A stretch of 32,497 bases of DNA from Flavisolibacter sp. (GTDB lineage: Bacteria; Bacteroidota; Bacteroidia; Chitinophagales; Chitinophagaceae): NCBI GenBank assembly GCA_028288675.1, contig JAQBNG010000188.1:1-32497 (forward strand). Reading direction: 5' to 3'. Shown one piece after another: positions 3,386 through 29,695 of this stretch. A program made the position numbers and the translations under genes. The notes beneath the pieces are model-generated. The model had not been told where the DNA came from and ran no database searches. It was given only the letters and a program-made list of their open reading frames with translations. Numbering within the stretch: position 1 is the stretch's first letter; every line of letters begins with the position of its first letter.

Positions 3386-3452
3386 CTTTTAATACAAGAG
3401 TGTTTGGCGCAAAATCAGCATCCATTTCATGTCCACGCATCAAATCATATCC

Positions 3453-3688: not shown

Positions 3689-3706
3689 ATATTTATTGGA
3701 CTCATC

Positions 3707-10180: not shown

Positions 10181-11542
10181 TTAGTTTTTATAAACCATAT
10201 AGGAATAAGGTTCGAGTGTAATGGAAGTTTTTAAAGTGGTTCTGCCTCCGTTAAATGCATCTTTCCAGGCAGTGTTTACCAAAGTTGCAGGCACCATATA
10301 AGTAACTTGTTTATTTCTCAAATTGGATAAAACCAACACCTTTTCGGTTCCCTTTATTTTAGTAAATACACATACATCATCATCGCTGTATGATGTTAGC
10401 AGCCCTCTTCTTATTGCTTCGCTCCTATTTCTAAAAGCGATGATCTTTTTATAGTCCGCTGTTATATCCGGATTCTTAAGTGTCCAGTCAACTTTGGTAG
10501 AGGTAAAAGGAAACGTCAGCCTATATGGTGTTCCTATTTCCTGCCCATTGTATATCATAGGAATTCCTTTCATGTAGGCAACCACCACAAAAGCCGCCAT
10601 TGATCCCGTCTTTCCTCCAAACAGGTCCAGGGGTGTTCCGTCGGAACCATTAACATCATGATTGGTCAGGTATCTTACCATTGCCTGGCCCTCTTCAACT
10701 GTACCCCTGTAATCTCTTATGTTCAGCGTATCAATTGATCGTACAGATTTATTTCTGCTATAAATATTTTTTAAGTTGCCAAAGAAGCTGAAGCCGAAAT
10801 TGTAATCAAATCCTGCAGCAAAGTGTTCAGGCCGGCTTCCCTCAGCTAGCATTAATAACTTATGAGTAGTGATAGTTTTCATCGTATCCAATGCCTGTTT
10901 CCAAAAATCAATAGGCGGACCGTCAGCAAAGTCACAACGAAAGCCATCGATATTGGCTTTATACACCCAGGCCTTCATCGATTTAATAAGACTTAGACGC
11001 ATATCGCTATTCTTAAAATTTAGCTGGGCTACATCTCTCCAGGTCCTTGGGTATTTGATATTTCCGGCGGTGTCCAGTTCATAAAAAGATTTGTTAGTTA
11101 TCCAGGGATGATCCCAGGAAGTATGATTGGCAACAATGTCGATCAGCACAGCCATTTTTCGTTTATGCGCACCATCTACAAGGGCACGCAAATCATCCAA
11201 TGTTCCGAATTCAGCACCCACAGAATCATAATTTCTTGTAGCATAGGGGGAGTTAACAGACTTAAGTACACCAACCGGAAAAACCGGCATTAGGTAAATT
11301 ACATTTACGCCCAGTTCCTTTATAGAATCTAAACGGGCAGTAACTCCCTTTAAATCTCTGGTGTCGCTAAAGGAACGCATATTCACCTGGTACATGGTAA
11401 CATCCCGGCGATCAGGTACATCCTTAAATGGTTTGCCGTATTGAGGCGGATATGGCTCGCCTGGTAACATTTGAGCAAACGAAATTGTTGTATTGAAACA
11501 CAATACCAGGGTGCTGAATAAAATGCCTGTAATTTTTTTCAT
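10181..11542 (-). CDS. GH13 alpha-amylase family protein (secreted)
   Basis: The ATG at 11542 gives a 453-residue protein with signal peptide MKKITGILFSTLVLCFNTTI-SFAQ. An upstream in-frame ATG at 11662 would overlap the esterase gene and hide this signal, so it is rejected. The GH13 barrel is complete: region I VLIDIVANH (about 132-140), region II GFRCDFAD with nucleophile D204, region III MLAEGSRPE with acid/base E234, and region IV YLTNHD with D296. The C-terminal beta domain ends LEPYSYMVYKN. It would hydrolyse alpha-1,4-linked glucans or oligosaccharides, probably in the periplasm because no lipobox is present. The start lies 13 bp after the esterase stop, so the two genes are translationally close. 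Confidence 0.9.
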   Translation of the reverse strand: MKKITGILFSTLVLCFNTTISFAQMLPGEPYPPQYGKPFKDVPDRRDVTMYQVNMRSFSDTRDLKGVTARLDSIKELGVNVIYLMPVFPVGVLKSVNSPYATRNYDSVGAEFGTLDDLRALVDGAHKRKMAVLIDIVANHTSWDHPWITNKSFYELDTAGNIKYPRTWRDVAQLNFKNSDMRLSLIKSMKAWVYKANIDGFRCDFADGPPIDFWKQALDTMKTITTHKLLMLAEGSRPEHFAAGFDYNFGFSFFGNLKNIYSRNKSVRSIDTLNIRDYRGTVEEGQAMVRYLTNHDVNGSDGTPLDLFGGKTGSMAAFVVVAYMKGIPMIYNGQEIGTPYRLTFPFTSTKVDWTLKNPDITADYKKIIAFRNRSEAIRRGLLTSYSDDDVCVFTKIKGTEKVLVLSNLRNKQVTYMVPATLVNTAWKDAFNGGRTTLKTSITLEPYSYMVYKN

Positions 11543-11555
11543 GCTATAGGATAGA

Positions 11556-12743
<1,188 letters not shown>

Positions 12744-12816: not shown

Positions 12817-14640
12817 CTATTTTCCTAATTCCAAAATATAGGCTCCTCTTGCAGGTATAGAGAGAGAAGTTTTTATGTCAACATTCTTTCGTGTTATTAC
12901 ATCTTTTCCAAATGTGTTCGTACCAATAGCATCTTGAAAACGTTCCATCGTAATTGTTTTATCAGCGTTAGTTCCGTTTAGCACAACAAGTACACGCTGA
13001 TCGTTGGTATACCTGCTATACACATAGACACCACTATTATCAGGGGTATAGTGCATAAGCCTGCCTTGTGTGACAGGGGAATTTTTTTTTCTCCATTGAA
13101 GCAGTTTTTGCAAATAGTTCCATGCTTCATTTTGCATTGGAGTTCTTCCTGCAGATGTGAAGGAGTTAGCCGAATCTTTAGCCCACCCGCCCGGAAAATC
13201 TTTTCGGTTAGATCCGGACATGAGAATCTCTGTTCCGTAATAAATTTGCGGAATACCCCGGGTCGTTAATAAAAAAGTGAGTGCCTGTTTGTACCTTTTC
13301 AGATCTTGTTCATCTGCTCTCATAAACCTGGCTATATCATGGTTGTCAAGAAACGTAAGAATATTTGCGGGATCAGGAAAGAGGAAATCCTGTGCAATCA
13401 CTTCGTAGAGATTAAATACTCCTGCCTCTGAACCTTCTCTTGAACTTGACTCCTGGTCAAAAGCTTTTTGCATTTTGAAGGTTAGTTCAAAGTCCATTAC
13501 AGTTTTTAGGTTGGTGTTTTTGTTGTTTATTATCGAATTGCGCTGCCACCATGCCGATGCTGTTCCGCGGGGATACCATGCTTCACCTACAATATTAAAC
13601 TGGGGATACTGCGCTTCCACTTCCTTGCACCATTGAGCCATAAAATCATAATCGGCATATGGATGAGTATCCTGCCGAATGCCATCAATTCTTGAATACT
13701 CAATCCACCAAATGCTATTCTGAATGAGATACCTTGCCATGTGACGGTTACGCTGATTAAGATCGGGCATTGATCTTACAAACCACCCATTAATTAAAAC
13801 ATCCTTCTCGCTTTTTGGTGCATGTACATCCATCATCGTCCATTTATAATGGTTGGTTTGCACATATTTTTCCTGCGAATTAATCCAGTCTTTTGAAGGC
13901 AGATCTTTCATCCACCAATGAGAACTTCCACAATGATTGAATATCATATCCATTACCACTTTCATCCCTTTAGAATGAACTTGCTTAATCATATCCTTAT
14001 AATCTTCATTCGAACCGAAACGTGTATCTACTTTATAGAAATCGGTAATGGCATAGCCATGATAGGACCCATTAGGCATTTTGTTTTCCTGAATAGGATT
14101 AAACCATACTGTTGTAACGCCCAAGTCTGCTATATAATCGAGGTTCTTTACAATTCCTGCTATGTCGCCGCCATGACGGGCACCATTTTGCAGCCGGTTA
14201 GCCTGGACACCTTCCAAGGAATCATTTGCAGGATTGCCATTTGCAAAACGATCAGGCATTATAAGGTACATCACATCAGCCTGGCTAAAACCCGCAGCGC
14301 CGCCTGCATTTTCACGGGCTCTAAGTGTATAGGTGTGGTTATACTTTTGACTGCTTTCGGTGAAGACGATATTAAATGTACCCGGTTTTGCTTTGGAAGA
14401 TATATCGAGGTAAATAAATAAGTAGTTCGGATTTTCTGCAGCAACTATTTCTTTAACCTTCACTCCGGGATAAGATAACGAGACTTTAGATTTTGCAATA
14501 TCCCTTCCATAGATAAGAATTTGCAGTTCTGTATTTTTCATCCCGGTCCACCAAAAAGCTGGTTCGACGCGGGTAATTTCAATTGCCGATGACTGTAAAA
14601 TTGAGCAAGCGAATAAAATAAAAAATAGAAGACCTTTCAT
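12817..14640 (-). CDS. GH13 neopullulanase/cyclomaltodextrinase (SusA-like), copy A
   Basis: The 607-residue protein has a signal peptide (MKGLLFFILFACSILQSSA) and an N-terminal cyclomaltodextrinase Ig-like domain (about 20-107, starting IEITRVEPAFWWTGMKN). The GH13 catalytic barrel follows: VVMDMIFNHCGSSHWW; GIRQDTH with nucleophile D324; IVGEAW with acid/base E353; FLDNHD with D435. A C-terminal beta domain ends SIPARGAYILELGK. The extended N-terminal domain and MPDLNQRN motif are typical of periplasmic SusA-type enzymes, which cut cyclodextrins, pullulan and malto-oligosaccharides. It is a tandem duplicate of the next gene upstream, 13 bp apart. LFAC in the leader is not a good lipobox because F occupies the -2 position. 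Confidence 0.92.
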   Translation of the reverse strand: MKGLLFFILFACSILQSSAIEITRVEPAFWWTGMKNTELQILIYGRDIAKSKVSLSYPGVKVKEIVAAENPNYLFIYLDISSKAKPGTFNIVFTESSQKYNHTYTLRARENAGGAAGFSQADVMYLIMPDRFANGNPANDSLEGVQANRLQNGARHGGDIAGIVKNLDYIADLGVTTVWFNPIQENKMPNGSYHGYAITDFYKVDTRFGSNEDYKDMIKQVHSKGMKVVMDMIFNHCGSSHWWMKDLPSKDWINSQEKYVQTNHYKWTMMDVHAPKSEKDVLINGWFVRSMPDLNQRNRHMARYLIQNSIWWIEYSRIDGIRQDTHPYADYDFMAQWCKEVEAQYPQFNIVGEAWYPRGTASAWWQRNSIINNKNTNLKTVMDFELTFKMQKAFDQESSSREGSEAGVFNLYEVIAQDFLFPDPANILTFLDNHDIARFMRADEQDLKRYKQALTFLLTTRGIPQIYYGTEILMSGSNRKDFPGGWAKDSANSFTSAGRTPMQNEAWNYLQKLLQWRKKNSPVTQGRLMHYTPDNSGVYVYSRYTNDQRVLVVLNGTNADKTITMERFQDAIGTNTFGKDVITRKNVDIKTSLSIPARGAYILELGK

Positions 14641-14653
14641 GTTTTGAATTGTA

Positions 14654-16501
14654 TTATTTCCCTAAATCGATTACGTAAACCCCTCTCGCCGGAATACTCA
14701 CCGACGTTTTAATATCAATGCTTTTTCCACTAATAATCTCTTTACCGGAAGTGTGGTTACCGATAGATTCTTTGAAACGTTGCATCGGTATAGTTTTGTC
14801 AGCGTTAGTTCCATTTAAAATAACAAGTACACGTTGGTCATCCTTGATTCTTGCATAAACATATACTCCATTATTTTCTGGCATATAATGTTGCATCGTT
14901 CCGTTGGTTACAGCTTTACTTGTTTTTCTCCATTGCAAAAGGTTTTGCATATAACACCATGCATCATTTTGCAAAGGAGTTCTTCCTGCTGACGTAAATG
15001 CATTAATTGAATCACCAGCAAAACCACCCGGAAAGTCTTTTCGCATCAAACCATCTCCCTCTTGTTTGGTTCCGGTCATCAGAAGCTCTGTGCCATAAAA
15101 GATTTGAGGTATACCCCTTATCGTAAGTAGGAATGCCAGGGCTTGTTTGTACCTGTTTAAATTCTTTTCGTCTTTGCGTATGAATCTGCTGATATCATGG
15201 TTATCTAAAAATGTAAGAACGTTATCCGGATCAGCATATAAAAAGTCCTGTGCTAATATTTCGTAAAGCGTAAAAAGTCCCGCCTGGTCTCCATCCTGGT
15301 GATTTGATTCTTCATCAAATGCTTTTTGCATTCTAAACACAAGGTCGAAATCCATAACTGTTTTCAGGTGCGAATTTTTCTTGTTTGTTGGTGAATTGCG
15401 CTGCCACCATGATGTAGCGGCGGCCCCGCCTGGAAACCAGGTTTCACCAACAATATTAAATTGCGGATATTCTGCCATTACTTCTTTACACCACCGTGCC
15501 ATAAAATCGAAGTCGGCATAAAAGTGAGTGTCCTGTCGAATACCGTCGATGCGTGCATATTCTATCCACCAAATGCTATTCTGAATCAGGTAAGTGCCCA
15601 TGTGGCGATTTCGTTGATTAAGATCGGGCATTGTTCTGGTGAATGAACCATTTATCAATCCGTCTTTTTCGCTTTTTGGCGCATGTATATCAAGCGATGC
15701 CCAACGATTGTGATTGCTGCCAAGGTAGACATCGGCGGAGCTAAGCCAATCTTTTGATGGCAGATCTTTAATCCACCAATGTGAACTACCGCTATGATTA
15801 AAGATCATATCCATCACCACCTTTAATCCTTTAGCATGAGTTTTCTCAATGAATAGACGATACTCCTCGTTTGTTCCGAAGCGCCGGTCTACGCTGTAGA
15901 AATCAGTTATTGCATATCCGTGATAAGATCCGCCGGGCATATCGTTTTCCTGTACGGGATTTAGCCATACGGTTGTAATACCAAGGTCTTTCACATAATC
16001 TAAATGGTTTTCAATTCCCAGCAGATCACCGCCATGGCGGGAATTTGGCCGGCTCCTGTTAACTGTAGAATTTCCCAGTTTATCGTTTGCTGTATCTCCA
16101 TTTGCAAAACGATCAGGTGTAATTAGATACAATACATCTGAAGGCGTAAAGCCTAATGCTCCCGGCGTTTTTGCCCGGGGCCTTAAAGGGTATTGCTTCA
16201 CTATTTTATCAGGGCCAGACGTAAATACTAAATTCATTGTTCCCGGGTTAGTAGCACCGCTTACCGTTAAATAAACGAACAGGTAATTAGGGCTTTCGAC
16301 TTTCGTAACTTCCTTGATTCGTACACCTGGATAACTTAAGGAAACCTTTGATTTAGAAATATCCTTACCATATACCAGAATCTGCAATTCAGTATTTTTC
16401 ATTCCTACCCACCAGAAAGCAGGTTCCATTCTGGTTATTTCTATAGCGCTGGTCTGTATGAAAAAGAAAAGAAAAAAAGTAGGTAATGCTAACTTTTTCA
16501 T
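14654..16501 (-). CDS. GH13 neopullulanase/cyclomaltodextrinase (SusA-like), copy B
   Basis: The paralogue of copy A shares colinear domains and, by eye, well over half of its residues. From the ATG at 16501 (MKKLALPTFFLFFFIQTSA) the protein has 615 residues. This start is preferred over the in-frame ATG at 16516 because the leader then matches copy A in length and the catalytic residues fall at identical numbers: D324 in GIRQDTH and E353 in IVGETW. FLDNHDISRF supplies the third carboxylate. Copy B has small insertions, such as AAATSWW near 361 and KQEGDG near the 470s-480s. Presumably periplasmic, it hydrolyses cyclic or branched malto-oligosaccharides. The start is 57 bp from the DUF1080 stop. 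Confidence 0.91.
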   Translation of the reverse strand: MKKLALPTFFLFFFIQTSAIEITRMEPAFWWVGMKNTELQILVYGKDISKSKVSLSYPGVRIKEVTKVESPNYLFVYLTVSGATNPGTMNLVFTSGPDKIVKQYPLRPRAKTPGALGFTPSDVLYLITPDRFANGDTANDKLGNSTVNRSRPNSRHGGDLLGIENHLDYVKDLGITTVWLNPVQENDMPGGSYHGYAITDFYSVDRRFGTNEEYRLFIEKTHAKGLKVVMDMIFNHSGSSHWWIKDLPSKDWLSSADVYLGSNHNRWASLDIHAPKSEKDGLINGSFTRTMPDLNQRNRHMGTYLIQNSIWWIEYARIDGIRQDTHFYADFDFMARWCKEVMAEYPQFNIVGETWFPGGAAATSWWQRNSPTNKKNSHLKTVMDFDLVFRMQKAFDEESNHQDGDQAGLFTLYEILAQDFLYADPDNVLTFLDNHDISRFIRKDEKNLNRYKQALAFLLTIRGIPQIFYGTELLMTGTKQEGDGLMRKDFPGGFAGDSINAFTSAGRTPLQNDAWCYMQNLLQWRKTSKAVTNGTMQHYMPENNGVYVYARIKDDQRVLVILNGTNADKTIPMQRFKESIGNHTSGKEIISGKSIDIKTSVSIPARGVYVIDLGK

Positions 16502-16558
16502 GCTTGTATATTTCATTGCCTCTTCGGGATATTTTTTGAAGTTGAATCATATAACGAG

Positions 16559-17356
16559 CTAAAGATTCCGGACCCAGATATTACGGTACGCTACCCTGGT
16601 TCCATGATCTTGTAGTGAAAGAGGCATCCGGCCATGTGGTTCGTATTTTGGAAAGCCAGTGTAAGGTGTGGTTCCTTTTAAAACATAATTGTTTTGAACC
16701 ACGATTCCGTTTAAAACTACTGTAACCATTGCAGGCGATTCCAATTCGTCATTGGTTCCAAACCTCGGTGCTTTCCAGTAAATATCATATACCTGCCATT
16801 CACCATTTTTGGTGTATGCATTTACAGATGGAGCCTGTTGCTTATATACGCTTCCAACCATACCGTTCACATATGTTGGATTATTGTCTCCATCCAGTAC
16901 CTGGATCTCGTACCTGCCTTGAATCATGATTCCACTGTTACCTCTATTTTGTCCCATGTGTTGTTCAGGTGCCGGCGATTTAAATTCAATATGCAATTGG
17001 CAATCGCCAAAGTAGTCTTTAGTAATAACAGATCCTCCACCAGGTTCTACAACCAGTTCACCATCTTTTACTGTCCATTTAGCTGGGCTATTATCCCTTG
17101 CCTTCCATTTCGAAAGATCTTTACCATCAAACAAAATAATAGCGTCCGATGGAGGCTTAGTACCACCGCCCGGCTGAACCTTTGGCGGTACGGGGTAATG
17201 CCATTCTGTACTTTCGGGTGCAGGACCCTGCTGGCGTTGTGGCTGTATCCGCTGAACGCTGTCAGCATTCGCTTGTACCCGGTTAGTTCCTTGTTGTGCA
17301 TGAATGACTGCTATACTGGTTGCAAGAAAGATAAAAGTGAGGATTAAATTTTTCAT
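16559..17356 (-). CDS. DUF1080 (3-keto-disaccharide hydrolase family) exported protein
   Basis: The ATG at 17356 gives 265 residues with signal peptide MKNLILTFIFLATSIAVIHA; an ATG at 17380 would add 8 residues before it. A Gln/Pro-rich linker (about 15-60) follows. The DUF1080/PF06439 concanavalin-like fold then begins with DAIILFDGKDLSKWKARDN and includes LVVEPGGGSVITKDYFGDCQ, NSGIMIQGRYEIQVLD and the ending GPL-type PLSLQDHGTRVAYRNIWVRNL. Members of this family cleave 3-keto-glycosides produced by Gfo/Idh/MocA dehydrogenases. The gene lies directly after such a dehydrogenase (78 bp gap), which supports that role here. An 11-bp direct repeat, GAAATTTTTGA at 17366-17376 and 17381-17391, lies in its leader. 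Confidence 0.87.
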   Translation of the reverse strand: MKNLILTFIFLATSIAVIHAQQGTNRVQANADSVQRIQPQRQQGPAPESTEWHYPVPPKVQPGGGTKPPSDAIILFDGKDLSKWKARDNSPAKWTVKDGELVVEPGGGSVITKDYFGDCQLHIEFKSPAPEQHMGQNRGNSGIMIQGRYEIQVLDGDNNPTYVNGMVGSVYKQQAPSVNAYTKNGEWQVYDIYWKAPRFGTNDELESPAMVTVVLNGIVVQNNYVLKGTTPYTGFPKYEPHGRMPLSLQDHGTRVAYRNIWVRNL

Positions 17357-17434
17357 GTTTATTCTGAAATTTTTGATCATGAAATTTTTGACATGATCGG
17401 TAAATGGATTGAAGGAATTACATCATGTTATAAA

Positions 17435-18772
17435 TCACACTACCGGAATTTTCCACGGAGTACGATACGCTTGTTTGAGAAAATGATCTGCTGCAGCGTT
17501 GTTTACAAACCTGCGTTTAAGCGGGTCATATACGACGCTGGTTCCTGTCAAATAAGAGATGTTGCCCATGTGCGCCAGGATAGTTGCAAAGGCGCCTTTT
17601 TCGATCGGGCTGTTTGTGTTATGACTTTGGTCCCTGATGCAGGCGCACCAATTGGTGGCATGGGCTTCAATACCACCTTCCTCAAATTTACCAACCAGTT
17701 GGACTTTTTCTGTAATGAGTGCTCCTTCCCTTGTTTTTTCAGGTATTAATTCAAAGCCTTCACGGTTGCAAACCAAGGTTGCCTTACTACCAATCCATGC
17801 CACTCCCTGGTTCCTGTTATACAGGTGGGCTACCTGCTGCGACCACTCTATATGAAAATTTTCAAATTGAAAAACTGTTGTTTGACAACTTGGAGTTTCG
17901 TTATTTGTCTTTGGATGTTTGTATGCTGTTGAATACACGGTTTTAGGATACTCAAGATTACTGAGTCCCAGTGCTTTCAGTCCATCTAAAGCAGAGTCAA
18001 TCCAATGCACCCCCCAATCAGTTTGTTGTCCACCACCATAATCCCAAAATGAGCGCCAGTTTCGAACACGAACAGGATTATACGGCCTTTTTGGTGCAGG
18101 CCCTAACCACATTTCATAGTCAAGGTTATCAGGAACCGGCACATCTTCAGCACCCGGTCTTGGATCCGTATTTTGGCTGAGCCATATTTGTACTTTATAA
18201 ACGTCGCCTAACACACCCGACTTTAATATTTCATTCGCTCCCTGAAAATAGCGTTGACTCGTCTGCCACAAACCTGTTGTGATAATACCCTTATACTTCT
18301 TTTGCAGGTCCATCATCAGGTTACATTCCTCTATGCTATTTGCTACTGGTTTCTCAACATAGATTGCCTTCCCTGCTTTGAGAGCCTCAGCAAAAATATA
18401 GGTGTGCCAATGATCTGGCGTAGCGATAATAACGCCATTGATGTCTTTGTTTTCTAACAATTTGCGAAAATCACCATACAACTGCATATTGGCAGTTTGG
18501 TTGGGAAAGTCTTTCTTAAATCGTGCAGCCTGTTCTTCAAGGCGTTGCTTGTTTACGTCGCACATGGCAATACAGTGTACCCATGGGTTATCTGTTAGGG
18601 CACCCTGCAAATCCCTGCACCCCATACCAACACCAATAACAGCAAGATTAACTCTGGAGAGAGCTGATCCCGCAAAGGTGGTAGATGCTTTGCTTGCAAT
18701 AAGGGATGAAAACCCTAAACCAACGGCTAAAGTGGAAGAATTTTTAAGAAAGCCTCTTCTATTTGTTGTCAT
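17435..18772 (-). CDS. Tat-exported Gfo/Idh/MocA family oxidoreductase
   Basis: The 445-residue protein begins MTTNRRGFLKNSSTLAVGLG, a twin-arginine (NRRGFLK) leader, so it should be exported folded with its nucleotide bound. The Rossmann motif VNLAVIGVGMGCRD (41-54) is present, as are CDVNKQR at the end of beta 2 and the EKP motif at 140-142 (AIYVEKPVANS). The C-terminal domain holds RNWRSFWDYGGGQQTDWGVH and DSALDGL, typical of the subfamily found with DUF1080 proteins. I infer that it oxidises a sugar at C3 or reduces the keto product, paired with the adjacent DUF1080 protein. The electron acceptor and substrate are unknown. It is embedded in the PUL, 103 bp after the GH13 amylase gene. Confidence 0.9.
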   Translation of the reverse strand: MTTNRRGFLKNSSTLAVGLGFSSLIASKASTTFAGSALSRVNLAVIGVGMGCRDLQGALTDNPWVHCIAMCDVNKQRLEEQAARFKKDFPNQTANMQLYGDFRKLLENKDINGVIIATPDHWHTYIFAEALKAGKAIYVEKPVANSIEECNLMMDLQKKYKGIITTGLWQTSQRYFQGANEILKSGVLGDVYKVQIWLSQNTDPRPGAEDVPVPDNLDYEMWLGPAPKRPYNPVRVRNWRSFWDYGGGQQTDWGVHWIDSALDGLKALGLSNLEYPKTVYSTAYKHPKTNNETPSCQTTVFQFENFHIEWSQQVAHLYNRNQGVAWIGSKATLVCNREGFELIPEKTREGALITEKVQLVGKFEEGGIEAHATNWCACIRDQSHNTNSPIEKGAFATILAHMGNISYLTGTSVVYDPLKRRFVNNAAADHFLKQAYRTPWKIPVV

Positions 18773-18875
18773 GTGGCCTTTATTTCTTTTAAAAAATATC
18801 TATAAGCAGCATTATTTTATGCAAGTTTGGTAGGGCTGAGGCAGCTTCTTAATAAATTCGGCAATTTTTTAAGAA

Positions 18876-20447
18876 TTATTTCTTAAGCAGCACAGTGCTA
18901 TAGGCCGGCATTTTCAGGCTATTGTTTCTTAGCGTTACATCTTTATTCTTAAAAGATATTTTGCTGTAATCTTTTAGTTCATCAGGTACTGTAACATTCA
19001 CTTCCGATTTGGAAAGGTTATGCAGCACTAACACTGATTCCCCCTCAGCCAATCTTACAAAAGCACATAATGCAGCATTGTTAAGGTTTACCGGTTCTAC
19101 TGCTCCATAAGAAAGTGCTTTACTGCCATTCCTAAGTTGAATAAATGTTTTATAATGACTATAGATGGAATTTTTATCCTTCATCTGTAATGCAACAGGA
19201 GTAATTGTTGAATCGGTGCTGTTCCTTGGCGCTTCCCATGTGGCTCGCGATTTATCTTTTCCCTTTACATCCCACAGGAACGGCTCCCGGATAAACTGGT
19301 CCGGCTTTTTTCCCTGCATTCCGATCTCCTCTCCATAATACAGGTAAGGCGAACCGGGAAGAGTCAGTAAAATGGAGGCTGCTATCTTGGCCTTATCCAC
19401 ATCATTATTAACGGAACTCATGATACGGTTCTGATCGTGGTTGGTAAGGAAGGTAGCATCAACATAATCCGGATTAATTGTTTTATAAAAATCCCTGATC
19501 TTTTTATGCATGATTGTAAGAGAATCTCCTTTTTCTGTATTCACAGCTTTTATAATAGCACTGCCCATATCAAAGTTGAACAAAGCAGGTATCCCCTTCA
19601 AATAAGGGCCGACAACTTCAGCTGGCGCCCATACCTCTCCAATCAAATAGAAGTCCTTATTAACTTTACGCATTTCCTGTAGAAAATACTCCCACCACCG
19701 GTGGTTATCCTGCGGCCGTTCGTCGGGAAAAATGTGGCGGGCGGCATCAAGTCTAAATCCATCGACTTTCACCTCTGAAGCCCAAAATCTGCCGATTTTA
19801 AAAACTTCCTGCCGAAGCTTGGGATTGTCGAAATTCAGATCCGGCATGTTGCCACCAAATTGGGAATAATAAAAATAATTGCTGTCAACACCTCGCAACC
19901 TTGTCCAGTGATTCCTCCTTCTGTTTTCACCCGCTGTTACATTGCCTTGACTTTGGGTTTGTGGGTCACTCATTTCTGTCCACACATAATAATCCCGGTA
20001 AGGACTATTGACATTTTTACTGGCATCTAAAAACCATGGATTTCTGCTGCTCGAGTGATTAAGCACCATATCGATTACTACTTTGATATTTCTTTTATGT
20101 GCTTCTTCAACAAAATTTTTAAAATCGTCTATTGTGCCGTAGGCAGAATCAATTCCATAATAGTCCGTGACATCGTATTTGTGATACGACGGTGAAGGGC
20201 TCATTGGCATCAGCCACACTCCTTCTACTCCAAGGTCTTTGAGATAATCCAGCTTCGAGGTCATCCCCTTAATATCGCCCTTTCCATCGCCGTCGGAATC
20301 GGCAAAAGACTGTACGTATATTTCATATGTTACCCCTCTTGGCCATGCGCTGACGCGGGGAGTGGTCTGTGCATTTAGTACAGTAACAACGCACAACTGA
20401 CCAATGAAAATGGAGAGTAATACCTGTATAAAAAATGGTTTCTTCAT
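18876..20447 (-). CDS. GH13 alpha-amylase (secreted, first enzyme gene after SusD)
   Basis: This 523-residue protein has a signal peptide (MKKPFFIQVLLSIFIGQLCV, cleavage near VLNA-Q27). QLC is not a lipobox because -1 is Leu. The GH13 core has the calcium-loop motif DSDGDGKGDIKG (50-61). Region I is VVIDMVLNH, region II GFRLDAAR with nucleophile D234, region III LIGEVW with E271 and region IV FLTNHD with D338. The GDIKG loop and YYGEEIGMQGKKPD place it among alpha-amylases/oligosaccharide hydrolases close to SusG-like enzymes. A C-terminal beta domain follows from about 430. It is the main candidate for the endo-acting enzyme of the locus, but its predicted periplasmic location differs from surface SusG. 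Confidence 0.91.
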   Translation of the reverse strand: MKKPFFIQVLLSIFIGQLCVVTVLNAQTTPRVSAWPRGVTYEIYVQSFADSDGDGKGDIKGMTSKLDYLKDLGVEGVWLMPMSPSPSYHKYDVTDYYGIDSAYGTIDDFKNFVEEAHKRNIKVVIDMVLNHSSSRNPWFLDASKNVNSPYRDYYVWTEMSDPQTQSQGNVTAGENRRRNHWTRLRGVDSNYFYYSQFGGNMPDLNFDNPKLRQEVFKIGRFWASEVKVDGFRLDAARHIFPDERPQDNHRWWEYFLQEMRKVNKDFYLIGEVWAPAEVVGPYLKGIPALFNFDMGSAIIKAVNTEKGDSLTIMHKKIRDFYKTINPDYVDATFLTNHDQNRIMSSVNNDVDKAKIAASILLTLPGSPYLYYGEEIGMQGKKPDQFIREPFLWDVKGKDKSRATWEAPRNSTDSTITPVALQMKDKNSIYSHYKTFIQLRNGSKALSYGAVEPVNLNNAALCAFVRLAEGESVLVLHNLSKSEVNVTVPDELKDYSKISFKNKDVTLRNNSLKMPAYSTVLLKK

Positions 20448-20616: not shown

Positions 20617-22023
20617 TTAATTTACTGTAATGCCCGGATTTCCATTTTGTTCATTATCCGGAATCTGAAATAATATTTTCCTGGAATCCCATGCATCGCC
20701 TCGTACTATTTGTCTCAACCTTTTAAGTTCATGTAATCTTTCTCCGCGTAGCGCAAGTTCTAACCGGCGTTCTTTTTGGACTGCAGCAATGATCGCACTT
20801 TGCGTAGCCGTAACTAAAGTTTGAGGGGTGCCGTATGCACGGGTTTCAATTTTGTTAAGCCAGGAAACCGCTTCGGTTCGATCTGTTGCGTTGGCAGAGG
20901 ATGCTAATGCTTCAGCATATATCAATAATAATTCATCGAAGCCCGTGACGATACCATCCATGTATTCATAATTGAATTTTGTTGAATAGACAATATTGTT
21001 AGCTGTTCTATAGAGCTTGGTGAACCGCGTATCGTTTGCAGCATGCGCAGCTACAAGACCCGGTGAAGGCCTCCATTGGGGAAGGGTACCAGTAGAATTA
21101 TTGCTTCGATATGAAGTCCTCATTGTGCCCCACGAATCATCTGATGCTGCTGTACTAGGGATCGAAAAAATCACTTCCTTAGTAGCATTTTTTAGCTGTG
21201 CCCTTGAATATTTTGCAACGATATCTGCATCAAGCGCAAATTGTCCTGAATTCATAACCGGTCTAGCTTCAACTGCAGCGTTAGCCATATCGCCTTTAAA
21301 GAAATACACTTTTGCTAACAGCGCTTTAGCTGCATCGCGTGTTGCAAGGCCACTGTTCCATGTTCTGGTACCAGGCAAATTGGCCGCCGCAAATTTCAGG
21401 TCGTTTATAACCTGTGTATATACTTCTTCAACTGTTGACCGCTGCGCCACTTCAAAAGCGTCGGCTATGATCGCTGTCCCTTTCAGCCTGATGGGAACAC
21501 CCATGCCCGGCGTATTTTTAGTCTGGTCGCTATAGGGTAAACCGAACAATCTTACCAGATGAAAAAGGCCCAAGCCTCTGATATAGGCGGCATCTGCCTT
21601 CAAACCATTTACTACATCCTGACTGGCAGACTGTAAAATAGGATCGGCCAATAAACTTGAAGAAGCAACGTTAGCCCGGTTGATAGCCTGGTAGGTATTA
21701 TTCCAGGTATTTCTACCAGGAGGATTGAAAAGATCCATTGAATGTCCAACTATCTGAGACCAATCGAAAGTGCTGTTTGTTGTAATTGCATCATCAGCTA
21801 TTACATCCCCGGCAATCAAGGCGGTTCCACCTAAAAACCCGGCGCTGCGTATTTGATTATATGCTCCAATCATCAGTTTTTGGAGATCTTCAGGAGTTTT
21901 TATAGCCTCTTCTGTAAGCGTCGTATTTAATGGCTTAATATCAAGGAATGAACTTTTTTCGCATGAACTTAGTAACAGGCAATATCCTGCTAACACAAGT
22001 AGTAATTTATGTTTAGACTTCAT
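20617..22023 (-). CDS. susD: SusD/RagB family glycan-binding lipoprotein
   Basis: The 468-residue protein has a clear lipoprotein signal, MKSKHKLLLVLAGYCLLLSSC, with acylated C21 after LLSS. Next comes FLDIKPLNTTLTEEAIKTPE, the standard SusD start. TPR-type helices (about 90-260) include AAYIRGLGLFHLVRLFGLPY, and the SusD C-terminal region has FDELLLIYAEALA, ERRLELALRGERLHELKR and the ending FQIPDNEQNGNPGI. It sits on the outer face of the outer membrane as the lid of the SusC transporter. It lies 10 bp after the susC stop, so the two are co-transcribed. The length is at the short side for the family (roughly 450-600). Ligand identity comes from context (GH13 enzymes), not from the sequence. 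Confidence 0.95.
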   Translation of the reverse strand: MKSKHKLLLVLAGYCLLLSSCEKSSFLDIKPLNTTLTEEAIKTPEDLQKLMIGAYNQIRSAGFLGGTALIAGDVIADDAITTNSTFDWSQIVGHSMDLFNPPGRNTWNNTYQAINRANVASSSLLADPILQSASQDVVNGLKADAAYIRGLGLFHLVRLFGLPYSDQTKNTPGMGVPIRLKGTAIIADAFEVAQRSTVEEVYTQVINDLKFAAANLPGTRTWNSGLATRDAAKALLAKVYFFKGDMANAAVEARPVMNSGQFALDADIVAKYSRAQLKNATKEVIFSIPSTAASDDSWGTMRTSYRSNNSTGTLPQWRPSPGLVAAHAANDTRFTKLYRTANNIVYSTKFNYEYMDGIVTGFDELLLIYAEALASSANATDRTEAVSWLNKIETRAYGTPQTLVTATQSAIIAAVQKERRLELALRGERLHELKRLRQIVRGDAWDSRKILFQIPDNEQNGNPGITVN

Positions 22024-22033: not shown

Positions 22034-25000
22034 TTAAAAGTTAAGGTTTAGCTGTATAGTGTAGCTACGTGACTGGGGTGGTGTTAGATAGGATACATTA
22101 GGACTAAGGTTCCGCGCTTGCGCACTTCCTGCATCTCTGAAAACCTCCGGGTCGCCATCATAGGAACTAATAGTGAAAATATTAGTAGCGGAAAAACTTA
22201 ACCGTGCGCCAGAAAGAAGGGCATATTTAACCAGGCTTTTTGGTAGGTTGTAGCCTAAACTGATAGTTTTAAGTCTGAAATAACTTGCATCATGAAGGAA
22301 CTCGGTTGTATTGCGGGTACGCTCTAAACCACCTAATCCCATAGAAAGTCTGGGCACAGAGGTTATATCCCCTGGTTTTTGCCATCTTGTAAGGGCCTTT
22401 GCACGAAGATTCCAGGCGCCAATACTGTTCATCTGGAATTTCTCGGCATCGTCGAATATGTTTCCGCCAATCTGAAATGTTCCGAAAAATCCAAAATCAA
22501 AGCTTTTCCAGGTGAACCTATTATCAATACCTCCGATAACATCCGGGTAAGGATGGCCAACCACCTGACGGTCTCTTTGTGTATTGTATACTTTTGTTGT
22601 TCCGGCAACCTGTTTAGCAGCATCAAGCATTTCGTAAACCGGCAACCCATCTGCAGGGTCAATGTATAATGTTCTTACCAGATAATTTGAGCCTATTGGT
22701 TTACCAACAATTACACGAGTATCTCCGTTACCACCCAAAGCATCAGGACCAGCGGTGCCAATATCTAATACTTTGTTGGTGTTACGTGAGATATTGAAGT
22801 TTGTATTCCACGTAAAATTTTTCTTTACGATATTTTTAGAATTAATACTAAACTCAATCCCTTTGTTTCTCAATTTTCCGACGTTTCCCAGAATTGACCC
22901 ATATCCTGTTGACGTACTTGTTGAAACACTTTGAAAGAGATCTTTGCTATTGTTTACATAATAGGAAACTTCTCCTGTAATCCTGTTGTTAAGAAACCCA
23001 TACTCAATACCCAGATCAGTTTTTGCAGTTGTTTCCCATCTCAAATTGGGATTAGCCAATGAAGAAATAGTAAAATATTGCATACTATTATAAAGCAGGG
23101 TATTCGCATTATTCGTAAGTCCCCATTGAGCATAATTTCCAATTTCTGCATTTCCTGTCAAGCCATAACCAGCTTTTAATTTTAAATAGCTGATAGCTTT
23201 ATATTTTTTCATAAAGTTTTCCTCAGTCAATATCCACCCGGCTGATAATGCTGGAAATGTTCCGAATTTGTTGTTTGTACCAAATCTTGATGAGCCGTCT
23301 GCACGGATAGTTCCCGTTAGCATATAACGGTCCTTTAAAGTGTAATTAACTCTTCCAAAATAGGAAAGAAAAGAATATTCAGAAGGGTTATTAACCGTAT
23401 AGCGGTTATTTGTATTTGGTGTGCCGTTTGCATTTATTTCCAGAGGTAATACAGGGTTATTAAAAAGCCAATCTTCCTGCCCTGCCACAAAGGTTACGTT
23501 ACGGGTATTAGACTGAGAAACATTTTTCAGAATCTCGCTACCCACCATAAATTTAAGCCGGTGGATATTTTTAATATTCATAGCATAATTCACCAAGGCT
23601 TTACCATTCCAATTGGTCAGGTAACGCCGGTTCTTGGAGGCTGAAGGTGATGTAGCCAATACCCGTGTTGTCAGGGCATACACCTCATTATGGCTATAGT
23701 CCAGGTTTCCTTCGATCCGGACAGTCAATTCTTTCAGGATATTTATATCTGTAAACAAGCTTGCCAAACTCCTTTGTCCCCTTGTTTTACGCGTTCTATT
23801 GTTGATTTCTGCTACAGGATTTGTAGATACGGGAAATCTGTAAAGCGCCCCGGTATCATTGTAAATCGGGAAATAAGGCAGGGCATTTGAAACCGCCCGT
23901 CCGTAGCCTCCATCAAACCCTACGGGTATGTGGTTTTGGTCGGTATAAGAGAAGGATAAATTCGCTCCTACTTTTAAAAAAGTAAAGGGACTGTAATCCA
24001 GGTTCAGCCTGGCGCTTGATCTTTTAAAATTATCATTAACCAGGAACGATTTTTCGTCAACGTATGAAAGTCCAAAATATCCCCTTAGTTTATTATTTCC
24101 CATACTTACCGATAAATCATTAAAACTTGAAAGGCCGGTATGTGTTGTTGCATCCTGCCAGTCTGTATCAGTCCGTAATGCAGTGGCCTCCGGAATATTT
24201 CCTGGTAAAGCGAGTGAAGCAGGAGCTCCGGTGGGATTGAATTTATAATCATTAGCTACAGCCTCCTTATACAACGTTATAAATTCCTGGGAATTCAACA
24301 TATCAAGTCGCCTGGTAATGTTTACCAATGAAAGACGGGAGCTAAAATTGATTTTAGGCTTTCCCTTGGTTCCCCGTTTAGTAGTGATTAGAATTACACC
24401 ATTAGCGCCACGTGATCCATATATAGCTGCTGCTGATGCATCTTTTAGTATTTCTATACTTTCAATATCATTTGTATTAATTGAAGCCAGCGGATTTTCG
24501 TTAATAGCTCCCAGGGTTTGCCCGGAGTTGGCAGCAATAGGAATACCATCGATAACATACAAAGGCTCGCCACCCGAAGTAATTGAGCCAACACCTCTTA
24601 TCCGAATTTGAGCACCTGCACCAGCCATACCGGTTGACTGAATAACTTGCACTCCAGCAGCTCGTCCCTGCATAGCCGCATCAAACGACGACACGGGTAC
24701 AGAGGATAGCACTGTTTTATCAATCCGTGCAATGGAGCCGGTAATGTCGCGTCGGTTCTGCGATCCATAACCAACAACTATCACCTCATTCATTGTTGAA
24801 GCTCTTGTTGTTAGCGATATGGCAAAATCTGTCTGATTGTCTATTGCTACTTCCCTTGTTTCATACCCGATAGAAGTGATTACCAATACATCTTTAGACA
24901 TAGCATTAATAACAAATCTGCCGTCTTCTCTTGTGGTTACAGTACTGCCTTTTCCTTTGACAGAAACAGTGGCTCCAACCAACGGTTCACCTTTTTCATT

Positions 25001-25102
25001 GTTTATCCTTCCCTTAATAGAAGAACTCTGTGCAACTGCCTGATGGAATGAAAATGACAACAGCGAAAAAAGTAATAATTGTAGTATTCGACTCTTTCTC
25101 AT
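22034..25102 (-). CDS. susC: SusC/RagA family TonB-dependent outer-membrane transporter
   Basis: The 1022-residue protein has a signal peptide (MRKSRILQLLLFSLLSFSFH, cleavage near AVA-Q25). A carboxypeptidase-regulatory-like domain follows (about 28-90, IKGRINNEKGEPLVGATVSV). The linker NEVIVVGYGSQNRRDITGSI leads into the plug domain (about 115-225), which holds AMQGRAAGVQVIQSTGMAGA and EPLYVIDGIPI. A 22-strand-type barrel makes up the rest and ends in YTIQLNLNF with a terminal Phe. It imports oligosaccharides with SusD, driven by TonB. No N-terminal STN (sigma/anti-sigma signalling) domain is present, consistent with control by the HTCS. It has the usual length for the family. Confidence 0.96.
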   Translation of the reverse strand: MRKSRILQLLLFSLLSFSFHQAVAQSSSIKGRINNEKGEPLVGATVSVKGKGSTVTTREDGRFVINAMSKDVLVITSIGYETREVAIDNQTDFAISLTTRASTMNEVIVVGYGSQNRRDITGSIARIDKTVLSSVPVSSFDAAMQGRAAGVQVIQSTGMAGAGAQIRIRGVGSITSGGEPLYVIDGIPIAANSGQTLGAINENPLASINTNDIESIEILKDASAAAIYGSRGANGVILITTKRGTKGKPKINFSSRLSLVNITRRLDMLNSQEFITLYKEAVANDYKFNPTGAPASLALPGNIPEATALRTDTDWQDATTHTGLSSFNDLSVSMGNNKLRGYFGLSYVDEKSFLVNDNFKRSSARLNLDYSPFTFLKVGANLSFSYTDQNHIPVGFDGGYGRAVSNALPYFPIYNDTGALYRFPVSTNPVAEINNRTRKTRGQRSLASLFTDINILKELTVRIEGNLDYSHNEVYALTTRVLATSPSASKNRRYLTNWNGKALVNYAMNIKNIHRLKFMVGSEILKNVSQSNTRNVTFVAGQEDWLFNNPVLPLEINANGTPNTNNRYTVNNPSEYSFLSYFGRVNYTLKDRYMLTGTIRADGSSRFGTNNKFGTFPALSAGWILTEENFMKKYKAISYLKLKAGYGLTGNAEIGNYAQWGLTNNANTLLYNSMQYFTISSLANPNLRWETTAKTDLGIEYGFLNNRITGEVSYYVNNSKDLFQSVSTSTSTGYGSILGNVGKLRNKGIEFSINSKNIVKKNFTWNTNFNISRNTNKVLDIGTAGPDALGGNGDTRVIVGKPIGSNYLVRTLYIDPADGLPVYEMLDAAKQVAGTTKVYNTQRDRQVVGHPYPDVIGGIDNRFTWKSFDFGFFGTFQIGGNIFDDAEKFQMNSIGAWNLRAKALTRWQKPGDITSVPRLSMGLGGLERTRNTTEFLHDASYFRLKTISLGYNLPKSLVKYALLSGARLSFSATNIFTISSYDGDPEVFRDAGSAQARNLSPNVSYLTPPQSRSYTIQLNLNF

Positions 25103-25714: not shown

Positions 25715-28700
25715 TTAGCTGTGTTGCAAACTGTTAATATAGCTGCTAGGCGTGATACCAAATTGTTTGTGAAAGTCCCTCGAAAAATTATTTTGTAAAC
25801 TGTAGCCAACCATATTGGCCACTTCGTTTACTTTATATCCTTCGGTTAATAATTCTGCAGCTTTTTTTAATCGTGATAAGGTAATAAGTTCACTGGGTGC
25901 AAGATTAGATAATACTTTTATTTTCCTGTACAAGGTGGGCCGGCTCATATTCATGAGTCCCGACAATTGCTCAACATCAAGTTCTATGTTAGTGATGTTA
26001 TCATTGATTATATTATGTAACCGTTCCAAAAAATTCTTATCAGGTTTAGAACATGCCATGCCTTTTAAATGGGTCAAAGGCGAACTCGCAAAATAGTCTT
26101 TTAACTTATCCCGGTTCGTAAGCAGATTGGTAATTTGTGCTTGTAGATGTTCTAATGCAAAAGGCTTTTCAATGTAGGCATCTGCCCCTACTTCAAGTCC
26201 TGCTATTTTTGAATCCAATGAGTTTTTAGCAGTCAGCAAAATTATTGGCACATGACTATATTGAAGATCTGTTTTAATTATTTTAGATAATTCAATACCA
26301 TCCATAACAGGCATCATGATATCGCTAACAACTAAACTTACATTTTCTTTTTGAAGAATTTCCAGTGCCTCGCACCCGTTAAATGCCTGGAAAACTTTGT
26401 ATTTTAAACTTAATGCTTTGTAGAGAAACCCTAAGATTTCTTTGTTGTCTTCAACTATTAAAATAGAAGGCTTTTGAGAATTAGATTCCTCCTCCTGAGC
26501 AATTGAAACTATTTCTTGTTTTTCGTCATTAGACGATTTCAGATATTGCAGGTCAATTGCTTCTTCCTGCTGTATAGGCAGTGATAATAAAAAAACATTA
26601 AATCCGCCTTCGGGCTTTTTTAATTCTAAAATACCTTTATGCAATTCGGCCAAAGATCTCGCAAGCGACAAGCCAATGCCGGTGCCTGATTGCTTCTCAG
26701 TTTCTTTTATTCTGTAAAAGGGCTCAAATATTTTTTCTTTTAATTCAAACGGTATCAGATAGCCATCATTTTTGAATTCAATATTAAGTACATCATCATC
26801 ACACCCGAAAGGCAACAGCTTAACAACAACCGAAGTTTTTGCATACTTAATGGCATTGCCAAAAAGATTACTCAATATTTTCCTGAAAGCTTCCGGATCT
26901 AAATAAGCATGTGGTTCAATGCGGCATAACTCTATTTTAAGTTGTAAACTTTTCTGTTCTGCTGCCGGCTTAAAGTTTATATATTCTTCCCTTAATAAAC
27001 TGGAAACATTGGATTTCATAAAACTCAGGCTGTAACTGTTTGCCTCTGCCTTACGGAAATCAAGTAATTCATTACTCAAGTCGATCAGCCTATTGGTATT
27101 TTTATTTATCATATGCAAGCCGTCTTTAATTTCTTGATCTAAGATTTCTTTATTCATAAGTTGATCTATAGGCAACTTTATGAGCGTAAGAGGTGTCTTG
27201 ATTTCATGAGTCACATTTGTAAAGAATTCGATCTTCGCATGATAAATTTCGCGTTCTTTTTCCATTTGGAATGCTTCCATTCTTCTTTTGCTCTTTTCTT
27301 TCATGGCCACATGGTAATACCGAATAATCGTAGTAACAATCACTATGATTATTACACCGTATAATATAAAAGCCCAAAGACTTGACCACCATGGCGGGCT
27401 AATGCTGATGGTTAATTTTGTTTCCTTAGGATTCCACCGTCCGTCGCTATTAGCGCCTTTAACTTTAAGTGTATAGTTGCCAGGAGGAAGTTTGGTATAA
27501 AAAATCTTTCTATTGCTTTTCATGTGGATCCATTCCTTGTCCAGCCCCTCAAGAATATATTGATATTCGTTCTTTTCCGGAGCCGCATAGCTCAGGGCAG
27601 CCACACCAAGGCTAATGTCTGACTGATTGTAAGGCAGCTCAAGGTGTTGTGTATACGTTATAGAGGTTTTGAGTGGCGACTGAGCTTCTCTTATGTTTAC
27701 CTCCTTGTTGTTAACCTGAATGTCGGTTATATAAACTGGAGGAACAAAGCTGCTTTGCGTAAACCCAGCAGGGTTAAAACTGATCAATCCTCTGACAGTA
27801 CCAAAGAAAAGCGTTGATCCTTTTTTCAAGGCCGAGTTATAATTAAATTGTTCGCTAACCAAACCATTTGCTGTACCATATTTCCGGACGCTTTGGGTGA
27901 GGGGATTTAACTGTACAAGCCCATGAGCCGTTGATATCCATATATAGCCAAGATCATCCTCCAGCACACGGAATACCTGGTTATCAAGCATACCACTCAG
28001 TATGGTATAATTAGTAATCTCGCCACTACGAGGATTATATTTAGAAAGACCTTCTTCGGTACAAAACCAAAAATTATTTTTACTGTCCTCAAAAATATTG
28101 TTGACGTAATCATTAATGAGACTTTTGGCATTGCCTTGCATGTGCCTGATAGCACCCCTTTTACCCGTACCGGCATTGTAATAATAAACGCCTTGACCGT
28201 ATGAACAAACCCATAAGGTACCTTCACTATCCTCATGTATTGCCTGAATTTGCATATCAAAAAAAGGCACTGGAGAGAAGTTGTCCCTCTTTCTATTGTA
28301 ACTGAACATGCCATTCCTTGTACCTATCAAGATGTCACCATTACGCCTTTGGTATATTGAAACAATAAAATCACTTTTCAGCGAGTTACTGTCATTGCCT
28401 GCATTGTAGTGCCTGACTACTTTTTCTGTTTGTAGGTCCATTACATCCAGTCCCTGTTCAAACGTGCCTATCCACAACTCTTTACCTGCAGCAAGCAAGC
28501 CATGTATCTTGTTATAGCAAATTGAACCTTTTAGTTTACTTGCCCCAAAATGTTTGACTTCTCCTGTCTTTCCATTTATTTTATTTAAACCCGCGTCTTC
28601 GGTTCCCACCCATAAATTACCTTTACTGTCTGTAGTGATCTCATGTACTATATTGCCCTTAAAGCCGCTACTAAGATTTGAGTTATGAATATACTTCTGA

Positions 28701-29695
28701 AATTTATTGAACTGATTGGAACAATAATTAACCCCACCATAGAAAGTACCCAGCCAGGTACCTCCTTCTGAGTCCTTAGCAATAGAAAAAACAACATCAT
28801 TGGAGAGTGAGTAAGGATTGTCCAGCTCTTTTCGAATGCGACTGCCCTGCCCTGTTTTGACATTAAATGTGTACAGCCCTGTTTCACTTCCAATCCAGTA
28901 TACACTGTCTGATTGAGGAAAAATACTTCGCACTTTAATATCATTTGCCCAGGAGTATCGTTTGAATACATTCTCCGTTCGGAGGGTGTTGGTATTAACA
29001 AGCAATACCTGGTTCATTACACCAATTAAAAAAGTGCTGTCACTTAAGGGAAACAGATCACGTATATTGTCTATCTTCTTTTGCTTTGGCAAGGAGGCTA
29101 ATACACTGTAGGGGATAAAACTATTTGTAGTGGGATTGTACTTTTTAATCTTTCCTGTGTTGGTGCCCACCCATAGTTCTCCGTTTGAGGATAAACGCAT
29201 GCAGGTACTTAATTCGCCTCCAAATGAATAGCGCTCTACGTCACCCCTCTCCGTATACCTATAAAGTTCATATCCTGCTATAATCCATATATTGTTTCTG
29301 TTATCCGATAGTATGGTACGAATATCAATATCAGGAAGCTTTCTAAATGGAGTAAAAACTTCTCTTTGGGCGTCATAAATGTAAACACCTTTATGCGTGC
29401 CTACCCACAGGCGACCCCGCTTGTCCTCGTACAAACTACCAACGGAATTACTGCCTATACTTAATGAGTCAGAAATATTATTTCTGAAAATTTTAAAAGA
29501 TGTGCCATCAAAACGATTAAGCCCATTACGCGTACCAAACCACATAAAACCTTTGTGGTCCTGCAAAATACTTATTACAGCGTTGCCGGACATTCCCTCC
29601 TTAACTCCGTAACTACGAAAAGAATAGGGCTGAGCTTTCAACAAAGAAAAGCAGCAAATAAAATATAAAAGAAATATAAATCGTCGTGCAACCAA
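25715..29695 (-). CDS. Hybrid two-component system (HTCS) sensor/regulator
   Basis: This 1326-residue one-protein signalling system starts with a signal/anchor (MVARRFIFLLYFICCFSLLK). The periplasmic two-component-regulator propeller repeats run from about 22 to 650 (repeated D..G..WvGT..GL..y units). A Y_Y_Y domain covers about 700-765 and the membrane segment about 771-792. The HisKA domain has H830 in FFTNVTHEIKTPL. The HATPase has its N box around NLFGNAIKYA (943-952) and its G box GTGIGLS (1004-1010). The receiver has D1083, phospho-acceptor D1125 in VVSDIMMPVMDG and K1177. An AraC-type helix-turn-helix occupies about 1225-1320. It presumably senses an oligosaccharide in the periplasm and activates susC. 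No ATG is available: the frame begins with TTG at 29695 and stops at 29722-29720 upstream. Confidence 0.95.
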   Translation of the reverse strand: MVARRFIFLLYFICCFSLLKAQPYSFRSYGVKEGMSGNAVISILQDHKGFMWFGTRNGLNRFDGTSFKIFRNNISDSLSIGSNSVGSLYEDKRGRLWVGTHKGVYIYDAQREVFTPFRKLPDIDIRTILSDNRNNIWIIAGYELYRYTERGDVERYSFGGELSTCMRLSSNGELWVGTNTGKIKKYNPTTNSFIPYSVLASLPKQKKIDNIRDLFPLSDSTFLIGVMNQVLLVNTNTLRTENVFKRYSWANDIKVRSIFPQSDSVYWIGSETGLYTFNVKTGQGSRIRKELDNPYSLSNDVVFSIAKDSEGGTWLGTFYGGVNYCSNQFNKFQKYIHNSNLSSGFKGNIVHEITTDSKGNLWVGTEDAGLNKINGKTGEVKHFGASKLKGSICYNKIHGLLAAGKELWIGTFEQGLDVMDLQTEKVVRHYNAGNDSNSLKSDFIVSIYQRRNGDILIGTRNGMFSYNRKRDNFSPVPFFDMQIQAIHEDSEGTLWVCSYGQGVYYYNAGTGKRGAIRHMQGNAKSLINDYVNNIFEDSKNNFWFCTEEGLSKYNPRSGEITNYTILSGMLDNQVFRVLEDDLGYIWISTAHGLVQLNPLTQSVRKYGTANGLVSEQFNYNSALKKGSTLFFGTVRGLISFNPAGFTQSSFVPPVYITDIQVNNKEVNIREAQSPLKTSITYTQHLELPYNQSDISLGVAALSYAAPEKNEYQYILEGLDKEWIHMKSNRKIFYTKLPPGNYTLKVKGANSDGRWNPKETKLTISISPPWWSSLWAFILYGVIIIVIVTTIIRYYHVAMKEKSKRRMEAFQMEKEREIYHAKIEFFTNVTHEIKTPLTLIKLPIDQLMNKEILDQEIKDGLHMINKNTNRLIDLSNELLDFRKAEANSYSLSFMKSNVSSLLREEYINFKPAAEQKSLQLKIELCRIEPHAYLDPEAFRKILSNLFGNAIKYAKTSVVVKLLPFGCDDDVLNIEFKNDGYLIPFELKEKIFEPFYRIKETEKQSGTGIGLSLARSLAELHKGILELKKPEGGFNVFLLSLPIQQEEAIDLQYLKSSNDEKQEIVSIAQEEESNSQKPSILIVEDNKEILGFLYKALSLKYKVFQAFNGCEALEILQKENVSLVVSDIMMPVMDGIELSKIIKTDLQYSHVPIILLTAKNSLDSKIAGLEVGADAYIEKPFALEHLQAQITNLLTNRDKLKDYFASSPLTHLKGMACSKPDKNFLERLHNIINDNITNIELDVEQLSGLMNMSRPTLYRKIKVLSNLAPSELITLSRLKKAAELLTEGYKVNEVANMVGYSLQNNFSRDFHKQFGITPSSYINSLQHS

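Follow-up and report, generated by a model that had tools for sequence, protein, structure and literature searches.

Sus-type loci, composed of SusA to SusG, are the textbook model of starch use and are regarded as purely hydrolytic. Here we describe a locus that carries the import proteins and GH13 enzymes of such systems together with a gene pair whose products would most likely act on alpha-glucosides by oxidation at C3 followed by cleavage. The locus lies in a Flavisolibacter sp. of the family Chitinophagaceae (assembly GCA_028288675.1), on a 32,497-nucleotide stretch of contig JAQBNG010000188.1 that was analyzed whole and is called the window below. The pair consists of a Gfo/Idh oxidoreductase of twin-arginine (Tat) type and a DUF1080 protein. 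The proposed chemistry is already known; what makes the locus a variant, rare yet conserved, is that this chemistry is built into a SusCD-GH13 operon.

The BT2156-BT2160 cluster of Bacteroides thetaiotaomicron has in common with the window a Tat-type Gfo/Idh gene adjoining a PF06439 DUF1080 gene, and a glucoside-3-dehydrogenase-like fold. The window differs in having no BT_2159-type enzyme and no AP_endonuc_2 barrel, in a Gfo/Idh protein that fails the BT_2158_fam cut-off, and in its SusCD-GH13 setting. BT2158 is a periplasmic glycoside 3-dehydrogenase required for trehalose, leucrose, and palatinose (PMC11300592). BT2157 is named a 3-ketotrehalose hydrolase of the PF06439 family in PMC9007349, where a DUF1080 protein is also proposed as a 3′-ketolactose hydrolase, and the growth of BT2157 and BT2158 mutants on raffinose-family sugars is given as unimpaired in PMC11501099. 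The AtOGE/AtHYD/Gfo pathway of Agrobacterium runs in the order oxidation at C3, elimination, hydration, and reduction, each step by a separate enzyme, as proposed for the window. It differs in that its eliminase is a TIM barrel rather than a DUF1080 protein and in that a flavoenzyme performs the oxidation; the eliminase and the likely hydratase are putative sugar phosphate isomerases (PMC10628242). Among the titles listed for the terms searched in an open-licence library, none concerned a GH13 locus containing such a pair.

The locus and its likeness to starch systems

The window lies on contig C36 of a 4.74-Mb genome in 254 contigs (completeness 99.8%), and its domain scan covered 17 of 22 open reading frames (ORFs), the other five being nested or antisense. 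Its SusCD genes and a CHU_C type IX signal point to Bacteroidota. The genes of the locus are given here in their order of transcription on the minus strand.

25715..29695, minus strand: HTCS, a hybrid two-component regulator that is probably the sensor of this locus (Reg_prop, Y_Y_Y, HisKA, HATPase_c, Response_reg, HTH_18)
22034..25102, minus strand: SusC-like TonB-dependent transporter (PF07715, PF00593, PF13715)
20617..22023, minus strand: SusD-like surface lipoprotein (PF14322, PF07980; lipobox LSSC)
18876..20447, minus strand: alpha-amylase-type GH13 with SusG_C domain (PF00128, E 6.8e-91; SusG_C, E 3.3e-17; no lipobox)
17435..18772, minus strand: Tat-type Gfo/Idh oxidoreductase, probable glycoside 3-dehydrogenase (PF01408, E 3.1e-16; PF19051, E 8.3e-23)
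16559..17380, minus strand: DUF1080 protein of the 3-keto-disaccharide hydrolase family with a Sec-like start (PF06439, E 1.1e-43)
14654..16516, minus strand: SusA/neopullulanase-type GH13 (Cyc-maltodext_N and Cyc-maltodext_C)
12817..14640, minus strand: second SusA/neopullulanase-type GH13 (Cyc-maltodext_N/C; nearest PDB sequence 9fyz, neopullulanase SusA)
11556..12734, minus strand: putative esterase with a CBM48-like N-terminal stretch (PF00756, by domain match)
10181..11542, minus strand: fourth GH13, alpha-amylase-type (start taken at an internal ATG preceding a signal-like stretch; mechanical ORF 10181-11662)

From SusC to the fourth GH13 the spacing is operon-like and the genes are co-directional, with successive gaps of 10, 169, 103, 54, 42, 13, 82, and 13 bp. 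The pair stands where the original prediction had placed it, between the first GH13 and the neopullulanases, on the same strand and with short gaps; coordinates and domains agree. The 169 bp separate SusD from the first GH13, the 103 bp that GH13 from Gfo/Idh, the 54 bp Gfo/Idh from DUF1080, and the 42 bp DUF1080 from the next GH13. A sequence scan, which is a weak method, placed no terminator-like site in any of these gaps. Of the four sites predicted on the minus strand, one separates the HTCS regulator from SusC (25618-25598) and three are intragenic. Compared with shuffles, neither the promoter scan (37 vs. a mean of 42.0) nor the terminator scan (11 vs. 13.6) gave an excess.

With a Sus-type starch locus the window shares SusC, SusD, SusA-type GH13, and a SusG_C GH13, whereas it has no GH97 SusB and no lipobox-bearing GH13, and has an HTCS regulator. 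SusE/F had no match within the locus. A pattern search found the three catalytic regions retained in the GH13 proteins. Over residues 1-45, a simple pattern detected no lipobox in any of the four GH13 ORFs; the fourth GH13 likely begins at residue 41, with its signal outside the range of the pattern, and its printed sequence also shows none. The esterase sits among the GH13 genes and may point to acylated alpha-glucans.

The oxidoreductase and the DUF1080 protein

Sequence and predicted model alike suggest that the oxidoreductase is probably a glycoside 3-dehydrogenase. Its nearest solved sequences are 8tdf (E 3e-28) and 8tdh (E 7e-28), and the same two entries are the top fold matches of its predicted model (mean predicted local distance difference test score, pLDDT, 71.9), with E-values of 2.6e-19 and 6.5e-19, a template modeling (TM) score of 0.61, and root-mean-square deviations (rmsd) of 6.4 and 6.7. 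Their titles name the Alistipes glucoside-3-dehydrogenase AL3, in one of the two with trehalose bound. The N terminus, MTTNRRGFLK, contains the twin-arginine pattern NRRGFL, in line with the Tat export predicted originally. The EKP and GGxxxDxxxH motifs are retained in all three of the named counterparts described below. We rejected a GH109 identity because the string GGHGG is absent from the window protein and from these three counterparts; GGHGG is the catalytic loop of GH109 NAD-dependent glycosidases, according to a reference title within PMC10628242.

For the DUF1080 protein, 4qhz is a close match at 223 bits. The Flavisolibacter genome holds 11 DUF1080 matches, and on contig C126 an AP_endonuc_2 gene lies near another DUF1080 gene and a SusCD pair. 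Contig C83 (L062:3906-8124) encodes a 449-residue protein with two tandem DUF1080 domains, flanked on either side by a Tat-like Gfo/Idh gene.

Counterparts in other Bacteroidota

The association of the two genes goes beyond chance: they have adjacent counterparts, at 67-76% identity, in three species (Parabacteroides distasonis, P. gordonii, and Maribellus luteus), and in P. gordonii much of the surrounding locus is shared as well. A contig scan with Gfo/Idh returned four loci, in P. distasonis (75%), P. gordonii (72%), M. luteus (70%), and a Bacteroidaceae metagenome-assembled genome (34%); the DUF1080 genes adjoining the first three are 67-73% identical to that of the window. The same adjacent pair occurs in a second P. 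distasonis record, L009 (NZ_OY725760.1), from a plasmid collection. This record, although labelled a plasmid, bears greA and prfB and is therefore probably a piece of chromosome.

The P. gordonii locus (L013/L055) has the order HTCS-Gfo/Idh-DUF1080-Gfo/Idh-GH13-SusC-SusD-GH13. It matches the window gene by gene in the regulator (34 and 44% to two pieces), SusC (54%), SusD (52%), SusA-type GH13 (62 and 66%), Gfo/Idh (72%), and DUF1080 (73%). It adds a BT_2159-type Gfo/Idh, an AP_endonuc_2 barrel, and a carboxylesterase, and no counterpart was found in it for the window's SusG-type GH13, fourth GH13, or PF00756 esterase. The P. gordonii regulator (L013:3798-7756) reads as two ORFs; it is a single ORF in the window and in P. 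distasonis. In another genome of the order of P. gordonii, G799, GH13 matches at 40800, 42462, and 44200-45039 of contig C2 are followed on the same strand by a Gfo/Idh gene (46238-47575, 73%). The proposed conservation of the gene set is thus upheld by the P. gordonii counterparts and by the three GH13 genes that precede Gfo/Idh in G799; the exact order is not kept. Relatives of the fourth GH13 (67-69%) occur in loci L084 and L107 beside a SusA-type GH13 and SusCD, where the pair is absent. Thus, the locus of the window would appear to resemble an ordinary alpha-glucan locus joined to a P. gordonii-type one.

In P. distasonis the regulator (41%) and the pair are common with the window; SusC is only 29% identical, and the neighbors of the pair are SusCD, a carboxylesterase, and a sugar isomerase-like gene. 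Besides the pair, the Maribellus locus encodes SusC (38%), SusD (31%), and a protein of SusE/F type. Identity to the window Gfo/Idh is only 23%, over 158 residues, for the first Gfo/Idh protein in the P. distasonis locus. The extra Gfo/Idh proteins of P. distasonis (713 bits) and P. gordonii (698 bits) pass the 650-bit cut-off of the curated BT_2159 family of disaccharide 3-dehydrogenases (NF058563), and an AP_endonuc_2 TIM barrel, hydratase-like in type, is present in both Parabacteroides loci (L055, L009). Of the evidence tying the pair to the 3-keto pathway of the literature, this BT_2159-type enzyme and this barrel are the strongest. Together with the first rank of AL3 in the fold search and the PF06439 match, the presence of the BT_2159-family enzyme beside the pair in both Parabacteroides supports part of the original interpretation, in which the pair forms and cleaves 3-keto glycosides.

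At the thresholds used, the window Gfo/Idh is infrequent. It was found in 1 of 148 genomes in the set of relatives (E 1e-100), namely its own; in 2 of 395 across the phylum (E 1e-95), its own and one at 43%; and in 3 of 393 in the order of P. gordonii (E 1e-110), which are P. gordonii, G799, and G569 (50%). Misses are possible in these counts, as at most 11 candidates per genome were scored in the first search and at most 4 in the other two. The pair is thus uncommon, and the host's relatives in the set searched yielded none at the threshold applied. It may have spread horizontally.

A survey of polysaccharide utilization loci, which had been suggested as a check, gave a similarly sparse picture. 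The SusA N-domain PF09087 matched 173 of 395 genomes, and the survey took in 120 of the 148 listed PF09087 places outside the Flavisolibacter genome (113 genomes; ∼20 kb each, nine below 15 kb). Purpose-built profiles found SusC in 68 of these 120 loci, GH97 in 28, Gfo/Idh in 2, and DUF1080 in 1, and GH31 in 8 with a profile built from few seeds; SusD appeared in 39, by a profile that probably misses members. A profile built from the window esterase alone matched in 4. The lone locus with DUF1080 (L098; 25% to that of the window) also has a Gfo/Idh gene (29%) and GH97, and its pair is convergent to GH13. The other Gfo/Idh gene (L070) is truncated at the edge of its stretch, where a DUF1080 gene beyond the edge would escape detection. 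Thus, none of the 120 loci showed the pair co-directional with GH13. The gene set is conserved but rare.

The window holds one more Gfo/Idh gene (8743-9822, plus strand), which has a signal-like start and converges on the end of the locus. We rejected it as the missing partner of the pair because its product falls outside both the BT_2158 and BT_2159 families at E 1e-10; in addition, blastp against the ORFs from the compared loci gave it no relative at E 1e-10. Elsewhere on the plus strand, an HSDR_N protein (177 residues) adjoins an Mrr-type restriction endonuclease (307 residues) at 2776-4630, next to a tRNA-Lys gene (2405-2478). A 1,077-residue protein is encoded at 4972-8205, in which Pfam detected at E 0.001 nothing but a CHU_C type IX secretion signal domain at the C terminus.

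Competing explanations and the role of the pair

We see about an even chance that the window encodes a SusCD-type locus, dedicated to alpha-glucosides or short alpha-glucans, in which two cleavage chemistries share one operon. By family membership, SusCD would import oligosaccharides, and the retained catalytic regions suggest that periplasmic GH13 enzymes would hydrolyze alpha-glucan bonds. By analogy with its relatives, the Gfo/Idh protein would fold around NAD(H) before Tat export and then oxidize a glucose unit at its C3 hydroxyl. The 3-keto sugar so formed would be cleaved at its glycosidic bond by the DUF1080 protein, through elimination and hydration. Reducing the 3-keto product would then regenerate NAD+ and glucose. 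The targets of the pair would be short alpha-glucosides left over by, or resistant to, GH13.

Several observations weigh against this explanation, in its chemistry or in its substrate. The Gfo/Idh protein scores 163 bits against the NCBIfam equivalog BT_2158_fam (NF058561), whose cut-off is 750 bits. Its best fold match has an rmsd of 6.4, and other Gfo/Idh enzymes, DgpA1 and a glucuronide-3-dehydrogenase among them, come close behind AL3, the nearest trailing by about one order of magnitude in E-value; thus, the reaction is not settled by the fold alone. The predicted DUF1080 model is poor (pLDDT 50.7), and the protein is distant, at 28 bits, from the 8tda/3osd group, which we take to be BT2157. 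Outside the four species with the adjacent pair, the two proteins occur separately: five DUF1080 relatives (45-61%; L057, L063, L066, L067, L068) lack an adjoining Gfo/Idh gene, and a Gfo/Idh relative (40%; L058) has no DUF1080 gene in its 20 kb. The accompanying enzymes of the Parabacteroides loci are also missing: the BT_2159 family has no member in the Flavisolibacter genome at E 1e-60, and likewise none in Maribellus, and AP_endonuc_2 is absent among the 17 window ORFs scanned. Finally, the P. distasonis pair has no GH13 in the annotated stretch or on the same G528 contig, and the Maribellus pair none on the 31.8 kb read or on the whole contig. The substrate therefore need not be an alpha-glucan. 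Judged from its relatives, the 3-keto interpretation fares well, and an alpha-glucan substrate is plausible, with P. gordonii and G799 in favor and P. distasonis and Maribellus against. Against the idea of a new system stand these pairs without GH13 and the publications on the chemistry (PMC9007349, PMC11300592, and PMC10628242).

The same pairs argue for the alternative that ranks next in probability. Here, the pair would serve another glucoside, such as a plant or microbial glycoside or a thioglycoside, through the same SusCD or by co-induction, and the GH13 genes would be independent neighbors. The low identity of the window SusC to those of the P. distasonis and Maribellus loci (29-38%) is consistent with this, as is the breadth of BT2158, which accepts both disaccharides and glucosinolates (PMC11300592). 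However, counterparts of the pair, SusA-type GH13, SusC, SusD, and the regulator are united in P. gordonii, three GH13 genes lie upstream of Gfo/Idh in G799, and even the Maribellus locus has a SusE/F-type gene. We consider this alternative possible, if on the unlikely side.

A second alternative is that the pair substitutes for the GH97 or GH31 alpha-glucosidase by which Sus-type systems complete the breakdown of maltose. GH97 is absent from the 99.8% complete Flavisolibacter genome despite its SusA-type GH13 genes, whereas it occurs in 30 of the 32 other genomes examined, and neither GH97 nor GH31 occurs among the 17 scanned window proteins. However, those 32 genomes were a non-random draw, mostly picked for strong PF09087 matches, and the Flavisolibacter genome has one GH31. 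P. gordonii, P. distasonis, and Maribellus all keep GH97, which also counts against the main explanation, and 39 of the 68 SusC-bearing survey loci lack GH97 and GH31 in their vicinity and DUF1080 and Gfo/Idh as well. A strict replacement of SusB is not supported by these genomes and loci, and we regard any replacement as improbable. Least probable, and in our view very unlikely, is that Gfo/Idh acts at another position or on another sugar while DUF1080 is a binding or non-catalytic protein: the Gfo/Idh family is large and catalyzes many reactions, both proteins fall below the cut-offs of or lie far from characterized members, and relatives of each occur separately, but the pair is adjacent in four species, the top fold match of Gfo/Idh is a glucoside-3-dehydrogenase, and a BT_2159-type enzyme adjoins it in two species.

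Returning to an operon with two cleavage chemistries, we see a more specific form, a mixed hydrolytic and oxidative alpha-glucan locus, as conceivable but less likely than not. In it, GH13 would cut the main chain and the co-regulated C3-oxidizing pair would clear the parts that resist GH13. Such a locus would be mobile, acquired by a handful of scattered Bacteroidota whose relatives lack it. With similar reserve, the resistant targets might include alpha-1,1, alpha-1,6, or acylated ends, and even acarbose-type pseudo-glycosidic inhibitors. If a conserved locus adds a redox and elimination pair to hydrolysis, some users of alpha-glucans could open bonds that resist glycosidases. The gene set of the window is a small, concrete case for asking why both chemistries combine.

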